Assembly: GCF_011742555.1 (NCBI RefSeq)
Contig: NZ_JAAQQR010000001.1
Span: forward strand, 496,001-560,000
Origin: Luteibacter jiangsuensis
GTDB taxonomy: Bacteria; Pseudomonadota; Gammaproteobacteria; Xanthomonadales; Rhodanobacteraceae
Direction of reading: 5' to 3'
Length of the DNA stretch: 64,000 nt
Shown: positions 32,009 through 40,842 of the stretch, piece by piece
Layout: every line of letters begins with the position of its first letter
Position numbering within the stretch: the first letter of the stretch is position 1
Program-made: the position numbers and the translations under genes
Notes under the pieces: generated by a model
What the model was told of the DNA's origin: nothing
The model's input: only the letters and a program-made list of their open reading frames with translations
The model's database searches: none

Positions 32009-33134
32009 TCAGGCGTCGATGCGCTTGGAGCCGGCTTCGAGGCCCGCCTTGAGGCTTGCCTCGACGAATTCGTCGAGGTCGCCATCGAGCACCTTCTGGG
32101 TGTCGGAGCGTTCGATGCCGGTGCGGAGGTCCTTGATGCGAGACTGGTCGAGCACGTAGTTGCGGATCTGGCTGCCCCAGCCGATGTCGGACTTGGTGGC
32201 TTCCAGTGCGTCCTTCTCGGCGTTGCGCTTCTGCACTTCCAGTTCGTACAGCTTCGCCTTCAGCATCTTCATGGCGCGATCGCGGTTGGCGTGCTGGCTG
32301 CGCTCGGTCTGGCAAGCCACGACCGTGTTGGTCGGAATATGCGTGATGCGCACCGCCGACTCGGTCTTGTTCACGTGCTGGCCGCCGGCGCCCGACGAAC
32401 GATAGACGTCGGTCTTGAGGTCGGCCGGATTGATGTCGATCTCGATGTCGTCGTCCACTTCGGGCGACACGAACACCGAGGTGAAACTGGTGTGCCGGCG
32501 GTTGTCGGAGTCGAACGGGCTCTTGCGCACCAGGCGGTGCACGCCGATCTCCGTTTTCAGCCAGCCGTAGGCGTAGTCGCCTTCCACACGGAACGTGGCG
32601 GACTTGATGCCCGCGACTTCGCCGCCGGAGACTTCCATGAGCTCGGCCTTCCAGCCGCGCGACTCGGCCCAGCGCAGGTACATGCGAAGGAGCATTTCCG
32701 CCCAGTCCTGCGCCTCGGTGCCGCCGGCGCCGGCCTGGATGTCGACGAACGCCGGGGCGGCGTCGAGCTTGCCGGAGAACATGCGCTGGAATTCGAGCTT
32801 GCTCACGCGGGCGTCGACCTTGTTCAGGTCGTCCACGATGGACTGCACGGTGGCCTCGTCGCCATCGGCGGCCGCCATGTCGAGCAGCTCCTTGGCGTCG
32901 TCGAGCGCGGCCGTCATCTCGTCGATGCCGGTGACGATGGTATCGAGCTGGGCGCGTTCGCGGCCGAGCTCCTGGGCGCGCTTCGGGTCGTCCCACACGT
33001 TGGGACTCTCGAGTTCGCGGTTGACTTCCTCTAGCCGTTCTTTCTTGACGGCGTAGTCAAAGATACCCCCTAAGCGACTCGACGCGGCCCTTGAGGTCCG
33101 CGATCTGCGCGAGGATCGGATTGGTTTCGATCAT
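32009..33134 (-). CDS. prfB: Peptide chain release factor 2 (with programmed +1 frameshift)
   Basis: RF2 reads UGA and UAA stop codons. The gene is in two frames. Codons 1-25 run from the ATG at 33132-33134 to CTT at 33060-33062, then an in-frame TGA. Skipping one base gives the second frame, which encodes 349 residues, about 374 in total (E. coli 365). The second part has the stop-recognising SPF motif ([13 protein letters not shown]) and GGQ ([13 protein letters not shown]). An annotation that starts at the internal GTG at 32998 misses the first 45 residues. Low RF2 favours the shift, so the gene is autoregulated. Confidence 0.97.
33057..33070 (-). promoter_or_regulatory. RF2 programmed +1 frameshift site
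   Basis: The minus strand reads AGGGGGTATCTTTGAC: an internal Shine-Dalgarno-like AGGGGG, three bases of spacing, the slippery CTT and the TGA stop followed by C. This matches the E. coli site in every key element. Confidence 0.97.
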
Positions 33135-33224: not shown

Positions 33225-33319
33225 GTAGGAGCGGACCTTGTCCGCGACAGCTTTTCGCGAAAAGCGGCAGGACCTGTTGCCATATCGCGAAAAGCTGTCG
33301 CGGGCAGGGCCGCTCCTAC
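33225..33319. repeat. GTAGGAGCG paired repeat between prfB and asnB
   Basis: Two inverted edges (GTAGGAGCGGACC and GGCCGCTCCTAC) frame two copies of a CGCGAAAAGC/GACAGCTTTTCGCG motif. The right edge supplies the TAG stop of asnB. It is related to the element at 49978-50073. Confidence 0.8.
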
Positions 33320-34986
33320 ACGGGCAAGGCCTCCCGGTGCACGCCGCGCACCGACCGGCCCGAGGGGTCGGCGGAGGCGGCGAACGCGGGGTCCCAGGCC
33401 AGGGCCGCCGGCGACGAGCAGGCGATGGACTTGCCGCCCGGCACCGTCGCAGCGCACGCCTCGCCCGGGAAGTGTTTCTCGAAAAGGCAGCGGTAGAAAT
33501 AGGCTTCCTTCGTGGCCGGCGTGTTGAACGGAAAACGGGACGCCGCCGCGGCGAATTCGCGATCGGACACCTGTTTCTCCGCGTGGTCCTTCAGCCCATC
33601 GATCCACCCGTATCCGACGCCGTCACTGAACTGCTCCTTCTGCCGCCAGAGAATCTCCGCCGGAAGGGCGCCGTCGAAGGCCTCGCGCAACACACCCTTC
33701 TCGATCCCCTTGCGGGCCACCATCTTGGCGTCGGCATCGAAGCCCATGGCGGTATGCAGGAATTCGAGGTCGAGGAACGGCACGCGCGCCTCCACGCCCC
33801 AGGCCGACATCGCCTTGTTCGCACGAAGGCAGTCGTAATACTGCAATGCCTCGAGCTTGCGCACGGTTTCGGCATGAAATTCGCGGGCCGACGGCGCCTT
33901 GTGGAAGTACAGATAGCCACCGAAGATCTCGTCCGAACCCTCGCCGGAGAGCACCATCTTCACGCCCATCGCCTTGATCCGACGGGCGAGCAGGAACATG
34001 GGCGTGGACGCGCGGATGGTGGTCACGTCGTAGGTTTCGATGTGCCGCACCACCTCGGGCAAGGCGTCCAGGCCTTCCTCCAGCGTGTAGCGGAAACCAT
34101 GGTGCACGGTGCCGAGAGCGGCCGCCGCGATTTCCGCGGCCTTGAGGTCCGGCGAGCCTTCGAGGCCGATGGCGAAGGAATGCAGGCGTGGCCACCAGGC
34201 CTCCGCAACGTCGTCGTCCTCGATGCGGCGGCGCGCGAAGCCGGCGGCCACCGCCGCCACCAGCGAAGAGTCGAGGCCGCCGGACAGCAGCACGCCGTAC
34301 GGCACGTCGGTCATCATCTGCCGGTGCACCGCCGCCTCGAACGCGGCGCGCAGGACGGGGGGATCGATCGTCCGCCCTTCCGTCGCGGCGTACTCGCGCC
34401 AGGCGGGCGACCAGTAGGGCACGGCCTCGCCACGCAGGCTGTCGTAGACGTGGCCCGGCGGGAAGGGCGCCACGTCGGCACACACGCCGACTAGCGCCTT
34501 CATCTCCGATGCGACGTACAGACGCCCTTCCCTGTCGTGGCCCCAGTACAGCGGACAGACCCCCAGGGGATCGCGCGCGATGAGGACCCGACGCCGCCGG
34601 GCGTCCCACAGGGCAAAGGCGAAGATGCCGTTGAGCGTGTGCACGAAGTCGGCGTCATGCTCGCGGTAGAGGGCGTTGATGACCTCGCAGTCGGAGCCCG
34701 TGGTGAACGCATAGTCGCTGGCGGCGCGAATCTCGCGGTGGTTGTAGATCTCGCCGTTCACCGCCAGCGCCAGGTCGCCCTCCGGTGAGCGCAGTGGCTG
34801 CGCGCCGCTGGCCGGGTCGACGATGGCCAGGCGCTCGTGCACGAGGATCGCTCCGTCGTCGACATACACGCCACTCCAGTCCGGCCCGCGGTGACGTTGC
34901 CGCTGCGACAGTTCCATCGCCCGCGCGCGCAGGGCGACGAGATCGTCGCCGGACGAGAGGCCGAACATTCCCAGAATCGAACACAT
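33316..34986 (-). CDS. asnB: Asparagine synthase (glutamine-hydrolysing)
   Basis: A 556-residue enzyme making Asn from Asp with glutamine as nitrogen donor and ATP. Residue 2 is the catalytic Cys of the class II glutaminase domain (MCSILGMFG), which extends to about residue 200 with RGPDWSGVY, RLAIVDP and VNGEIYNH. The synthetase half has the pyrophosphate loop LLSGGLDSSLVA and LSGEGSDEIFGGYLYF. Size matches E. coli AsnB (554). AAGGAG lies about nine bases before the ATG. The stop is the TAG of a dispersed repeat. The leader contains a putative Asn-dependent attenuator, so expression should rise when charged tRNA-Asn is scarce. Confidence 0.97.
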   Translation of the reverse strand: MCSILGMFGLSSGDDLVALRARAMELSQRQRHRGPDWSGVYVDDGAILVHERLAIVDPASGAQPLRSPEGDLALAVNGEIYNHREIRAASDYAFTTGSDCEVINALYREHDADFVHTLNGIFAFALWDARRRRVLIARDPLGVCPLYWGHDREGRLYVASEMKALVGVCADVAPFPPGHVYDSLRGEAVPYWSPAWREYAATEGRTIDPPVLRAAFEAAVHRQMMTDVPYGVLLSGGLDSSLVAAVAAGFARRRIEDDDVAEAWWPRLHSFAIGLEGSPDLKAAEIAAAALGTVHHGFRYTLEEGLDALPEVVRHIETYDVTTIRASTPMFLLARRIKAMGVKMVLSGEGSDEIFGGYLYFHKAPSAREFHAETVRKLEALQYYDCLRANKAMSAWGVEARVPFLDLEFLHTAMGFDADAKMVARKGIEKGVLREAFDGALPAEILWRQKEQFSDGVGYGWIDGLKDHAEKQVSDREFAAAASRFPFNTPATKEAYFYRCLFEKHFPGEACAATVPGGKSIACSSPAALAWDPAFAASADPSGRSVRGVHREALPV

Positions 34987-35020
34987 AGGTCTTGCACTCC
35001 TTGTGAGAAAGCACGCAAAG

Positions 35021-35045
35021 AAAAAAGCCCGCCTTGGGGGCGGGC
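35021..35045 (-). terminator. Leader terminator (putative attenuator) before asnB
   Basis: On the minus strand a perfect 7-bp GC stem, GCCCGCC with GGCGGGC and loop CCCAA, is followed by T6 (35026-35021). It lies 35 bases upstream of the asnB ATG and reads toward asnB, and it is separated from hutF by the leader ORF. Confidence 0.85.
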
Positions 35046-35079
35046 CTTTCGTGATTCGGATGGTTTCGCCTGAAACCGC

Positions 35080-35151
35080 CTACACGCCGACCCTCCCGAG
35101 GTTCCGGGCACGGTTATTGGTGTTGGCGTTATTGGCGGCGATGCGAAGCAT
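35080..35151 (-). CDS. Asn-rich leader peptide of asnB (putative)
   Basis: A 23-codon ORF from ATG at 35149-35151 to TAG at 35080-35082. Codons 7, 8, 10, 12, 13 and 17 are Asn (AAT or AAC), six in eleven positions. Such clustering upstream of asparagine synthetase, followed by a terminator hairpin, is the hallmark of ribosome-mediated attenuation. Codons 18-21 contain GGGAGGG (35097-35091), which can pair with CCCGCCC (35044-35038) of the terminator with one mismatch. A ribosome stalled at the Asn codons would leave GGGAGGG free for antitermination; one reaching the stop would cover it. There is no strong Shine-Dalgarno site; an in-frame GTG at 35190 is an alternative start. Confidence 0.78.
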   Translation of the reverse strand: MLRIAANNANTNNRARNLGRVGV

Positions 35152-35157
35152 GGGCCG

Positions 35158-35186
35158 ACTAAAGCACGTTACGGACGGCGACGCAA
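35158..35186 (-). promoter_or_regulatory. Candidate promoter for the asnB leader
   Basis: TTGCGT (35186-35181), a 17-base spacer and TTTAGT (35163-35158) resemble a sigma-70 promoter directly after the hutF stop. Transcription would start near the leader ATG, giving a nearly leaderless message. Weak matches; prediction only. Confidence 0.4.
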
Positions 35187-35193
35187 GCACCGG

Positions 35194-36552
35194 TCAGGCG
35201 GCAGCCAGGCGTTCCACCACGCGGCGATAGGCGTTTGCGGAAGACGCCTCGGCCACGTGCGCGAAATCGCGTACGCGCCATTGCCCTCCCACCATCACGT
35301 CGCGCACCAGCGGCGTGTTTCCTGCGAACAGGAAGCTGTCCATGACGTCCGCCTCGTCCCTGGCGGCCAGTAACGGCGAACGATCGTCGAGCACAAGCAG
35401 ATCGGCCCGCGCGCCGGCCGCCAGCCTGGCGATGTCGCTACCGGACGCCTGCGCGCCGCCGACAAGGGCACGCTGCCAGAGTGCCGTGCCCACGCTTTCC
35501 TCGGGCAGCCGCGCGGCGACGTTGCGGTGTCGCGTCACCAGGCGCTGTCCGTATTCCAGCCAGCGAAGCTCTTCCACCGGCGAGACGGAAATATGCGAAT
35601 CCGAACCGATGCCGAATGTGCCGCCCGCATCGATGAAGGCGGCCAGAGGGAAAAGGCCGTCGCCGAGGTTGGCTTCGGTCGTGGGACAGAGGCCGGCCAC
35701 GGCGCCGCTCTTCGCGATGCGGTCGGTTTCCTGGGCCGTGAGGTGCGTGGCGTGGATCAGTGTCCAACGGGCGTCCACGTCGGCGTGGTCCAGCAACCAT
35801 TCCACCGGCCGCGCGTGACGCACGGCAAGGCAATCCTGCACCTCGCCGATCTGCTCGGCGATGTGGATGTGCACCGGAAGCCCTTGGGCGATACCCGTCG
35901 CGAGGAGCGCGCGCATGGCGTCTTCGGGCACGGCGCGCAGTGAGTGCAGCGCCATGCCCAGCGTGAACATGTCGTCCTGCATCGGCGCCAGGCGCTCCAG
36001 CAAACTCACGAAGCTGCCCACGTCGTGACGGAAACGCCGTTGCCGTTCCGAGAGTGGCCGGCCGTCGAAGCCGCCCGTCATGTAGAGCACCGGCAGCAAC
36101 GTGAGACCGATGCCGGCCTCCCTCGCCGCCTCCACGAGTGCCAGCGACATGGCAGCCGGATCGGCGTAAGGAACGCCGCGCGGTCCGTGGTGCAGGTAAT
36201 GGAACTCGCAGACCTGGGTATAGCCCGCCTTCACCATCTCGACGTACAGCTGTGTGGCGATGGCTTTCAGGTCGTCGGGATCGATCGCCTCCGCGAAGGC
36301 GTACATGGTTTCGCGCCAGGTCCAGAAGCTGTCCTCGCCCGGTCCGCGTCGCTCCGCCAGCCCGGCCATCGCGCGCTGGAATGCGTGCGAATGGAGGTTG
36401 GGCATGCCCGGCAGCACAAACCGGCCGATGCGCGTCGCATCGCCTGCCGCCGGACTGAACCGCCCTGATGCGATGCCAAGCGCGACATCGTCCCCGGCAC
36501 GCCACGCGCCGCCTTGCCAGAGAAAGTCTGCGCTTATGGCGGTATTCGACAT
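35194..36552 (-). CDS. hutF: Formimidoylglutamate deiminase
   Basis: A 452-residue amidohydrolase that converts N-formimidoyl-L-glutamate to N-formyl-L-glutamate and ammonia in histidine degradation. Metal and substrate motifs are PGMPNLHSHAFQRAM, IHIAEQIGEVQDCL, LIHATHLTAQE and GIGSDSHISVSPVEELRWLEYGQRL, the last typical of HutF. The ATG at 36550-36552 gives MSNTAISADF; the frame is open further but that part crosses the divergent promoter region. It is transcribed away from the GNAT/nitrilase-clcA-hutI genes. The following step needs HutG, not present in this window. Confidence 0.93.
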   Translation of the reverse strand: MSNTAISADFLWQGGAWRAGDDVALGIASGRFSPAAGDATRIGRFVLPGMPNLHSHAFQRAMAGLAERRGPGEDSFWTWRETMYAFAEAIDPDDLKAIATQLYVEMVKAGYTQVCEFHYLHHGPRGVPYADPAAMSLALVEAAREAGIGLTLLPVLYMTGGFDGRPLSERQRRFRHDVGSFVSLLERLAPMQDDMFTLGMALHSLRAVPEDAMRALLATGIAQGLPVHIHIAEQIGEVQDCLAVRHARPVEWLLDHADVDARWTLIHATHLTAQETDRIAKSGAVAGLCPTTEANLGDGLFPLAAFIDAGGTFGIGSDSHISVSPVEELRWLEYGQRLVTRHRNVAARLPEESVGTALWQRALVGGAQASGSDIARLAAGARADLLVLDDRSPLLAARDEADVMDSFLFAGNTPLVRDVMVGGQWRVRDFAHVAEASSANAYRRVVERLAAA

Positions 36553-36662
36553 GACGTCATTCCTGCGACCGGGGATGCGGCATGGTACTCCGTGCCGCCG
36601 TTGTGCAGCGGCCGAAACTTTCAGGGAAGGCAGCGGTGGAGTCGCTGGCGCATAATAAGACG
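36553..36662. promoter_or_regulatory. Divergent promoter region between hutF and the hutI-containing operon
   Basis: A 110-base gap. On the plus strand CATAAT (about 36653-36658) sits just before the GNAT/nitrilase ATG and could be a -10, which would give a short or absent 5' UTR. No clear HutC operator is visible. Confidence 0.35.
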
Positions 36663-38234
36663 ATGAACGAGAGCAAGGCTTCACAGCCGCCCAAATTGCT
36701 GCTTCGCCTGGCCCGCCCCGCCGACGTTCCGGAACTCGTGGCGCTCACCGCCCGCGTGTACACGGCGGAATGGGGCCACTCCGCCGAAATGCTGCATGGC
36801 CAGCAGACGCACTTTCCCGAAGGCCAGTTCGTCGTCGAATACGAAGGCCGCATCGTGGGTTTCTGCGCCACGTTCCGCATCGCCGAGACAGTGGCCCTCG
36901 CGCCGCACACCTGGATGCAGATCACCGGCGGCGGGTTCGCTTCGCGCCACGACCCGGAGGGCGACTGGCTCTACGGCATGGAGGTGGTGGTGCATCCCGA
37001 CTACCGGGGCATGCGCATCGGACAGCGCCTCTATATGGCGCGCAAGCGGCTGTGCACCGACCTCAAGCTGCGCGGCATCGTCTTCGGCGGGCGCATTCCG
37101 GGGCTGGCCCGCGCCATCGGCCGCTACGGCAGCGCCGAGGCCTATGTCCAGGCGGTGGTCGAGGGCAGCCGCCGCGATCCCACGCTCAGCTTCCAGCTGC
37201 GCAACGGCTTCGAGGTGATCGGCCTGCTCCGCGGCTACGTGCCGTCCGACCACGAATCGCTCGGCTATGCGGCGCACCTGGTCTGGCGCAACCCGCACCG
37301 TCTCGACCAACCCGACATGCCACGCGTGTCGCAAAGCCACCGCCTGCCCGACAACGTGCGGGTCGCCTCCGTGCAGTACCAGCAGCGCCGTATCTCTTCG
37401 TTCGCCGAGTTCGCCACCCAGGTGGAGTACTTCGTGGATATCGCCGCGGATTACGACGCCGACTTCGTCGCCTTTCCAGAGCTGCTCACGCTGCAACTGC
37501 TGTCCATCGAGAACGCGGAACTGTCGCCGGTGGATTCGATCCGCCGCCTTTCGGAATACACCGACGAGGTCAAGGCGCTGTTCCACCGGCTGGCGGTGCA
37601 CTACAACATCAATATCGTGGGCGGGTCGCATCCCACGCGGCAACCGAATGGCGACATCCACAATGTCTGCTATGTGTGCCTGCGCGACGGCTCCATCCAC
37701 GAGCGCGAGAAACTGCATCCCACACCGAGCGAGCGCAATGTCTGGAACATCACCGGCGGCGACGCCGCGGCCACGATCCAGACCGACTGCGGCCCCATCG
37801 GCGTGATGATCTGCTACGACTCCGAATTTCCCGAAGTGGCGCGCCACCTCACCGACCAGGGTGCATTGATCCTGTTCGTCCCCTTCTGCACGGACGTGCG
37901 CGAGGGTTACCTCCGCGTGCGCTACTGCTCCCAGGCACGCGCCATCGAGAACCAATGCTATGTCGTCCTTTCCGGTAACGTGGGGAATCTTCCAGGCGTG
38001 AACAATTTCGATATCCAGTACGGGCAGAGCTGCATCCTCACGCCCAGCGACTTTCCCTTCGCGCGCGACGGCGTCGCCGCCGATTCCACTCCGAACATCG
38101 AAACCGTGCTGTTCGCCGACCTCCGCCTGGAGAACCTCGCCCGTGCGCGCAATTCGGGTGCGGTGCAGAACCTCAAGGACCGCCGCTACGACCTCTACGA
38201 AGTGCGCTGGGCGCGCAGCACGGAGGTGAAATGA
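36663..38234 (+). CDS. Bifunctional GNAT acetyltransferase / carbon-nitrogen hydrolase protein
   Basis: A 523-residue fusion. Residues 1 to about 210 form a GNAT domain with acetyl-CoA binding motif A ([19 protein letters not shown]). Residues 235 onward are a nitrilase-superfamily hydrolase with the full catalytic triad: Glu in [10 protein letters not shown], Lys in HEREKLHPT and Cys in [12 protein letters not shown]. This fusion recurs in proteobacteria without an established substrate. Here it overlaps clcA (ATGA) and lies in one operon with hutI, opposite hutF, so a link to histidine breakdown products is a fair guess but not shown. The ATG at 36663 is chosen over an upstream GTG because it starts the conserved part. 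Confidence 0.88.
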
Positions 38235-39610: not shown

Positions 39611-40842
39611 CTGTCGATCCGCGCTGGGACCACCTGCTTCTCGACGTCGGCCTGGCCACGCTGCTCGACAACGGCGTGCCCTATGGTGCCGTCGAGCACG
39701 GTGCCATCGGCTGGCGCGACGGAAGGATCGCCTTTGCCGGCCCCGTCACCGAACTGGCAGGCGAACCGCACGAACTCGCCCGTCATGTCGAGTCGCTGCC
39801 CGGCACCTGGGTCACGCCCGGACTCGTCGACTGCCACACGCACCTCGTCTTCGCGAGCGATCGCGCGCAGGAATTCGAGCAGCGGCTCGAGGGCGCCTCG
39901 TACGAAGAGATCGCCCGCGCGGGCGGCGGCATCGTTTCCAGCGTGCGTGCCACGCGTGCCGCGAGCGAGGACGAACTGCTGCGCCAGTCGCTGCCGCGCG
40001 CGAAGGCACTGCTCGCGGACGGCGTCACCACACTGGAAATCAAATCGGGCTACGGCCTGGAACCCGACGCCGAGCGCCGCATGCTGCGCGCGGCAAGGCG
40101 CATCGGCGAGGAGCTGGGCATCGACGTGCGCACCAGTTTCCTCGGTCTGCATGCGCTTCCGCCGGAATATGCAGGGCGACGCGACGACTATGTGTCGCTT
40201 GTCTGCGACATCATGCTGCCGTCGCTCGCGGCGGAGGAACTGGTCGATGCCGTGGACGCGTTCTGCGAAGGCATCGGCTTCACCGCCGAAGAAACGGAAA
40301 GGCTCTTCACGAAGGCCACCGCGCTGGGGCTGCCGGTGAAGCTGCACGCCGAGCAGCTTTCCGACCTCGGCGGCGCGGCGCTCGTGGCGCATTACGGTGG
40401 TCTGTCCGCCGACCATCTCGAATGGACGAGTGACGACGGCGTGCGGGCCATGGCCGAGGCCGGCACGGTCGCCGTGTTGCTGCCCGGAGCGTACTACGCG
40501 CTTCGCGACACCCGGCCGCCGCCGGTCGACGCCTTTCGCCGCCACAACGTGCCCATGGCGGTCGCCACGGACCTGAATCCCGGCACGTCGCCGCTGCTGT
40601 CGCTGCGTCTCGCCATGGGCATGGCGTGCACGCTGTTCCGGCTTACACCCGAAGAAGCATTGCGAGGCGCGACGGTGAACGCCGCGCGCGCCCTCGGCCT
40701 CGCCGATCGCGGCACGCTCGCGGCAGGCCAGCGCGCCGATCTGGCAGTGTGGAACATCCGCCACCTTCCCGAGCTCTGCTATTGGATCGGCGGCAACCTG
40801 CTCAGGGAAAGCTGGCTCGGCGGCGAGCGCGTGCTTCTGTAG
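39607..40842 (+). CDS. hutI: Imidazolonepropionase
   Basis: A 411-residue amidohydrolase that opens the ring of imidazolone-5-propionate to give formimidoylglutamate, the substrate of HutF. Motifs are the metal-binding [46 protein letters not shown] and [21 protein letters not shown]. The ATG at 39607 overlaps the clcA stop (ATGA). The open frame upstream belongs to clcA in another frame. hutH and hutU are not in this window. Confidence 0.94.

Follow-up and report, generated by a model that had tools for sequence, protein, structure and literature searches.

Leader-peptide attenuation is a classic form of regulation for amino acids other than asparagine. Classic attenuators comprise a short leader open reading frame (ORF) with codons for the product amino acid, an intrinsic terminator, an antiterminator that shares the 5′ arm of that terminator, and a biosynthetic gene downstream. 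In Firmicutes, Asn-specific T-box leaders sense the charging of Asn-tRNA and control Asn genes; the T-box binds uncharged tRNA directly and works without a leader peptide. In Sinorhizobium meliloti, the trpL attenuator is reportedly leaderless, so that its transcript begins with the leader ORF. Comparative studies of proteobacterial attenuation by Vitreschak and others in 2004 and by Lopatovskaya and others in 2010 could hold an Asn prediction. The initial annotation of the DNA analyzed here knew of no attenuator for asparagine synthetase, and our search of the open literature likewise gave no Asn leader-peptide attenuator among the matches listed.

Here, we describe a leader upstream of asnB in Luteibacter jiangsuensis, within a 64,000-nucleotide stretch of DNA that we call the window. 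Each defining feature of leader-peptide attenuation that we tested is present, and we consider it highly probable that this leader is a ribosome-mediated transcription attenuator through which asnB expression would respond to the charging of Asn-tRNA(Asn). The element shares with classic attenuators the short leader ORF, the terminator, the antiterminator built on the 5′ arm of the terminator, and the downstream biosynthetic gene. It differs from them in its asparagine specificity, its AAT-biased Asn codons, a predicted leaderless leader mRNA, a region 2 that lies within the ORF beside the stop codon, and a 1:2 hairpin that does not rise above chance. The signal that it is predicted to sense is also that of the Asn T-box leaders, which differ in binding tRNA directly and having no leader peptide. 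The predicted position of the leader ORF at the 5′ end resembles that reported for S. meliloti trpL, which differs in having Trp codons, in belonging to an alphaproteobacterium, and in the trans functions described for it. In the window, every family of Rfam release 15, aptamers and T-boxes included, stayed below its gathering score; the leader's best subthreshold match, Thr_leader, scored 20.8 bits where 55 are required (E value of 0.11). The mechanism is textbook; what looks new is the amino acid and the leaderless design. If the reading is true, leader-peptide attenuation extends to the sensing of asparagine in a clade to which Xanthomonas, Stenotrophomonas, and Lysobacter belong, and the leader is a ready reporter of Asn limitation.

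The asnB locus and its asparagine supply

The putative regulated gene, asnB, occupies 33316..34986 on the minus strand, with its ATG at 34986; all the leader features described below are on that strand too. Family searches identified its product as the glutamine-hydrolysing asparagine synthase B (NCBIfam PRK09431.1; 825.8 bits, where the cut-off is 499), which carries the Pfam domains Asn_synthase and GATase_7. Sequence inspection places a ribosome-binding site, AAGGAG, at 34997..35002. Further upstream is the leader peptide ORF (35080..35151), 23 codons that encode MLRIAANNANTNNRARNLGRVGV and run from an ATG at 35151 to a TAG ending at 35080. Asn occupies codons 7, 8, 10, 12, 13, and 17, and codons 7 to 13 (N N A N T N N; 35113..35133) make up the main cluster of control codons. 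In this short leader ORF, codons for the amino acid that the downstream gene supplies are thus clustered, and its Asn density (6 Asn in 12 residues) was reached by none of 100 dinucleotide shuffles of the 350-nt upstream region. The initial annotation had described this ORF with its six Asn codons, a 7-bp GC stem followed by T6 (35045-35021), and the AAGGAG with the asnB ATG beyond it, and each is where it was placed.

From this layout we propose the following mechanism. Transcription would start at or next to the leader AUG, as the promoter geometry suggests, and translation of the peptide would take place on a leaderless mRNA. If charged Asn-tRNA is ample, the ribosome would pass the Asn codons, reach the stop codon, and cover region 2, leaving region 3 to pair with region 4 so that RNA polymerase presumably terminates before asnB. 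Under Asn scarcity, the ribosome is predicted to stall on the Asn cluster with region 2 free; region 2 would then capture region 3 ahead of the synthesis of region 4, the terminator would come too late, and asnB would be transcribed. The leader, therefore, very probably switches asnB on when asparagine is low.

The gene content of the genome makes this arrangement sensible. Asparaginyl-tRNA synthetase (AsnRS, encoded by asnS) was found in the window's genome at 622 bits against a cut-off of 342.6, and family searches of the same genome gave no match to gatB or asnA; because of this combination, Asn codons are a sensible sensor of AsnB output. Across 61 genomes of the order, AsnS exceeded the cut-off in 58. 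AsnB alone (E ≤ 1e-100) was present in 31 of these genomes and GatB alone (over its cut-off) in 25, with none having both and 5 having neither, one of which has a weak partial gatB match. Since AsnB and gatB are mutually exclusive among the 61 genomes, Asn-tRNA should depend on free Asn in the AsnB lineages. Judged by gene content, then, charging of the tRNA that would be sensed depends on the free amino acid, as an attenuator with Asn control codons requires.

Conservation of the leader and linkage to asnB

Of the 103 asnB loci examined, 23 came from the window's genus; the other 80, on named genome contigs, were the best of 588. Upstream of asnB, 63 of the 103 carry an Asn-rich ORF, and these were picked out as leader loci for that reason. 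In 59 of the 63, the Asn density was unmatched by any of 100 dinucleotide shuffles; in the other four (L047, L048, L060, and L086), it was reached by 1 to 4 of 100. Among the remaining 40 loci, only L084, L095, and L104 have Asn-rich ORFs at that level (1, 4, and 4 of 100 shuffles, respectively), and all three are outside the clade. L110, the other Photobacterium locus, is without an Asn-rich ORF.

The presence of the leader follows AsnB identity. Where AsnB is at least 73% identical, 61 of 64 loci (among the 103) have the Asn-rich ORF, and below 73%, L074 and L086 have it. The three loci in the higher class without a leader, L042 (labeled Rhodococcus sp. RD6.2), L059, and L071, bear non-Lysobacterales labels, and their AsnB identity is 75 to 77%; either asnB was transferred without its leader or these are mislabelled or misbinned contigs. 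L074, labeled as a Rubrivirga metagenome-assembled genome and so outside the main clade by label, has an AsnB of 65% identity and a short Asn-containing ORF with a terminator of 11 bp followed by T8.

Because the 63 loci were selected for the ORF, a second count was made in a sample of the order. Two covariance models, built from 31 and 14 leaders, were run on a 200-genome sample in which AsnB was also searched, with 128 genomes having AsnB at E ≤ 1e-100. Conservation of the Asn codons in relatives was one of the points on which the attenuator reading had been staked at the outset, and it holds up well: all 64 asnB genes of at least 73% identity have a model match on the right strand, ending 21 to 166 nt upstream, a count that is not fully independent because at least 5 of these genomes supplied leaders to the models. 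Among the matches listed for the other 64 AsnB genomes (<73%), one is adjacent to asnB (genome G103), and when 22 of these 64 upstream regions were checked by script, the same single case emerged, with the gene start uncertain in 4 of the 22. The G103 leader is shorter and has its own terminator.

Not every model match is an Asn leader. L177 to L181 (first model) and L188 (second model) were rejected since no frame around the match exceeds 3 Asn per 12 residues. No Asn leader was found before asnS in the window's genome, where there are at most 2 Asn per 12 residues.

The gene upstream of the leader in the window is hutF, identified by family search, and a comparison of the hutF-asnB gap among relatives had been suggested. 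Comparison of asnB loci does recover a conserved Asn-rich ORF, yet the leader is linked to asnB and not to that gap, as hutF is in the fetched flanks of just 18 of the 63 leader loci, all within the window's genus. This linkage bears on the idea that the stem is only the terminator of hutF and the Asn-rich ORF a chance reading frame. The idea draws on the fact that hutF ends at 35194 and reads toward asnB, and on a loose pattern scan that expects 0.8 terminator-like sites per shuffle of a 1.2-kb stretch. It was rejected because the element accompanies asnB whatever gene lies upstream; moreover, the Asn density is far above that of shuffles and region 2 covaries with region 3, so that we regard this explanation as barely credible.

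Another explanation is that the element is a small protein gene whose Asn-rich peptide acts as a product with a function of its own. The ORF is indeed kept with its start, stop, and Asn clusters. However, those clusters are the only part common to the leader peptides, whose length ranges from 22 to 44 residues (61 rows) and whose C-terminal tails vary by clade (LGRVGV, RPMRDCD, LPRAGD, and RWRARA), tracking the pairing of region 2 with region 3, and we consider a protein-coding role in place of attenuation very unlikely. A trans role is reported for peTrpL of Sinorhizobium (PMC7298713). By analogy, the Asn leader peptide may have a trans role as an extra to attenuation.

Terminator, antiterminator, and order of transcription

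An intrinsic terminator lies between the leader ORF and asnB. Its stem pairs GCCCGCC (35045-35039) with GGCGGGC (35033-35027) and is followed by a T6 run (35021..35026), with region 4 (GGCGGGCT; 35026..35033) as the 3′ arm. The 5′ arm belongs to region 3 (CACG ... GGCCCGCC; 35039..35053), which also serves as the 3′ arm of the antiterminator; the 5′ arm of the antiterminator, region 2 (GGAGGGTC ... CGTG; 35083..35096), is the 3′ end of the ORF beside the stop codon. The proposed pairing of GGGAGGG in codons 19 to 21 with CCCGCCC is possible, with one A.G mismatch. Terminator-like stems occur 20 to 38 nt past the leader stop in all 63 leader loci, a count made without a shuffle control. A simple pattern scan of 34500-35700 returned no promoter-like and no terminator-like sites; in that scan, stem extension probably uses up the T run in A-U and G-U pairing.

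The T runs and their placement also bear on whether the leader works mainly through translation or Rho, with stalling altering access to the asnB ribosome site or Rho loading. Four of the 63 loci (L036, L038, L067, and L068) have just 3 T in the 8-nt tail, and in some loci the terminator is as little as 30 nt from the asnB start, and both points favor such a mechanism. On the other hand, at least 4 T are found in the tail at 59 of 63 loci, asnB has its own Shine-Dalgarno (SD)-like 4-mer at 59 of 63, and the distance from terminator to asnB ranges from 30 to 224 nt. There is, in our estimate, only a slim chance that translation or Rho is the main route, and transcription attenuation remains the preferred reading.

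Helix covariation was assessed in an alignment of 31 leaders built from sequence alone. For the 2:3 helix, 92.3% of cells are paired, versus 33 to 57% when the arms are slid; the covariation score was equalled by none of 500 shuffles, and both-side changes occur in 3 of 8 pairs, a count reached by 3 of 500 shuffles. For further pair types there is little excess over shuffles (55 of 500 as high). For the 3:4 helix, 94.0% of cells are paired and the covariation score was again unequalled in 500 shuffles, with both-side changes and further pair types at shuffle level (256 and 255 of 500). A test for compensatory changes in the stems was an early suggestion for checking the reading; both helices covary, and the antiterminator uses the 5′ arm of the terminator.

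Individual columns illustrate the changes. At column 47-105, 25 sequences have G-C and three of the Lysobacter type have C-G; L061 has A-U for G-C and L046 has U-A for C-G. By eye, the corresponding position in the Xanthomonas/Stenotrophomonas group is U-A, with region 4 following, and in L048 a U-A pair replaces C-G. At column 49-103, 14 of the 31 sequences lack a pair, among them the window with its A.G.

The energetics of the antiterminator differ among loci. The best region 2:3 duplex has 11 to 13 pairs in ten loci of the Xanthomonas/Stenotrophomonas type, and across all leader loci the duplex exceeds that formed with a shuffled region 2 in 32 of 63 (P < 0.05); at the window locus, it is no better than with shuffled region 2 (z = +0.6). 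Folding of the RNA from the stall point, taken as the last Asn cluster (in L037 to L039, as the last NN pair), to region 3 has an energy below that of shuffles (P ≤ 0.05) at 44 of 63 loci, including 15 of 23 members of the window's genus, and P is 0.05 at the window locus. Support for the antiterminator is weak in the window's own genus. In 59 of 63 loci, at least 50% of the terminator arm finds upstream partners before region 4 is transcribed; this observation proves little, since shuffles also give high values (means of 0.34 to 0.72 of the arm).

Once region 4 is included, the antiterminator survives in the minimum-energy fold at just 5 of 63 loci, so it needs to form first and the order of transcription matters. 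The textbook model of attenuation likewise depends on this order. When a ribosome is placed on the stop codon, the terminator folds at all 63 loci.

The 1:2 hairpin is another matter. The initial annotation proposed the full 1:2, 2:3, 3:4 logic of amino acid attenuators, with CCCG (35108-35105) and CGGG (35098-35095) as an upstream hairpin. These sequences do face each other, and the 2:3 and 3:4 helices covary; however, the folding energy of the 1:2 region at the window locus is not below that of shuffles (P = 0.47), and the hairpin is at chance level overall, with P ≤ 0.05 at 3 of 63 loci and at none of 23 in the genus. Since region 2 sits inside the ORF beside the stop codon, a 1:2 hairpin is unneeded, and we treat it as accessory, as in the trp model, and not as a defining feature. 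The attenuator reading as a whole is backed by conservation, Asn codon counts, helix covariation, the terminator, and the Asn-supply gene content.

Promoter geometry, codon usage, and branched-chain attenuators

Promoter-like hexamers lie immediately upstream of the leader ORF. In the window, TTGCGT (35181..35186) resembles a -35 element, and TTTAGT (35158..35163) resembles a -10 element that ends 6 nt before the leader ATG. This geometry is common across loci. A -35-like hexamer beginning with TTGC lies 16 to 18 nt from a -10-like hexamer (TCTAGT, TTTAGT, TCTATT, CAGGAT, TACGGT, and others) in 61 of 63 loci, and in 56 of these 61 the gap between the end of the latter and the leader start is 6 or 7 nt; the script that was used required TTG and had free choice among in-frame starts and spacings. 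As a control, TTGC occurs over the same spacing range before 183 of 4,054 other ATGs in the loci. By eye, TTGC is found at a similar distance in 11 of 14 further loci, whereas L142, L162, and L175, with their starts as chosen, have no TTGC at that distance. The predicted transcription start falls at the AUG itself, and the leader mRNA is therefore likely leaderless, to judge from promoter geometry. In clades that have it, the CAGGAT hexamer could also act as a weak SD sequence. The reading predicts attenuation on a leaderless mRNA, with ribosome-polymerase coupling in the absence of a 5′ untranslated region.

The choice of Asn codons is also distinctive. The 63 leader ORFs contain 395 Asn codons among 1,898 (207 AAT and 188 AAC), compared with 6 Lys codons (AAA or AAG). 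Whereas AAT makes up 207 of the 395 Asn codons in the leaders, it accounts for 60 of 476 in asnB (first 1,650 nt; Fisher P = 9e-38); within the genus, the corresponding counts are 88 of 142 and 7 of 147 (Fisher P = 1e-27), with both P values ignoring relatedness among the sequences. Other leader codons have A or T at the third position in 13.1% of cases, versus 14.6% in asnB; because they are not enriched, the AAT bias is specific to the control codons. The bias might slow decoding, or it might keep the region unstructured.

The second covariance model also matched elements before leuA and ilvC (E values of about 1e-8 to 3e-5), and L182 to L187, initially candidates for Asn leaders, proved to be attenuators of the leuA or ilvC type. 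One such element, L189, lies in the window's genome (C18:132063-132334) before leuA and has the leader MTQRNTHGRFALNRLTSVVGKLRLGSGLLLISLVLITCGGAG. It has TTGACA 31 nt before its ATG, compared with 29 nt for TTGCGT in the asnB leader. Family searches identified the downstream gene as 2-isopropylmalate synthase for L182 and L189 (from partial queries, with L189 below the curated cut-off) and as ketol-acid reductoisomerase for L184 and L186; the other elements, L198 to L207 among them, are of the branched-chain type by leader sequence only. The ilvC-type leaders end in ...VLVLITSPTGAGRTGV or similar. Like the Asn element, these attenuators have promoter-like hexamers near the leader ATG, control codons, a region 2 at the ORF end (GGTGCGGG), a region 3 (CCCGCACC), and a region 4 with a T run; unlike it, their control codons are for Leu, Ile, and Val. 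The shared layout indicates that the order uses attenuators of this kind.

Common descent of the branched-chain and Asn elements is possible. In alignments of the spacers only, ilvC-type elements scored a mean of 14.5 against Xanthomonadaceae Asn leaders (12.2 shuffled), and leuA-type elements scored 15.7 against Rhodanobacteraceae Asn leaders (13.7 shuffled), contrasts that the inclusion of related sequences inflates; the two other combinations were near shuffled values (13.4 versus 13.3 and 12.9 versus 12.2). A more specific proposal, which we hold as doubtful yet worth stating, is that the Asn attenuator is an ilvC or leuA attenuator copied within the order, with Leu, Ile, and Val codons swapped for Asn. 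Such elements would be interchangeable leaderless cassettes, with specificity set only by the codon cluster and with AAT over AAC tuning sensitivity. Given the AAT bias and the existence of parallel branched-chain leaders, both the choice and the swapping of codons are open to experimental test.

Other genes lie near the locus. On the minus strand near asnB, prfB begins with an ATG at 33134 (gene 33134-32009) and carries AGGGGGTATCTTTGAC at 33056-33071, which we take to be the usual RF2 programmed frameshift site; the listed 329-amino-acid ORF from 32998 is only the part of prfB after this site. Near hutF (35194-36684, minus strand), hutI (TIGR01224; 462.8 bits) lies on the other strand at about 39694-40824.
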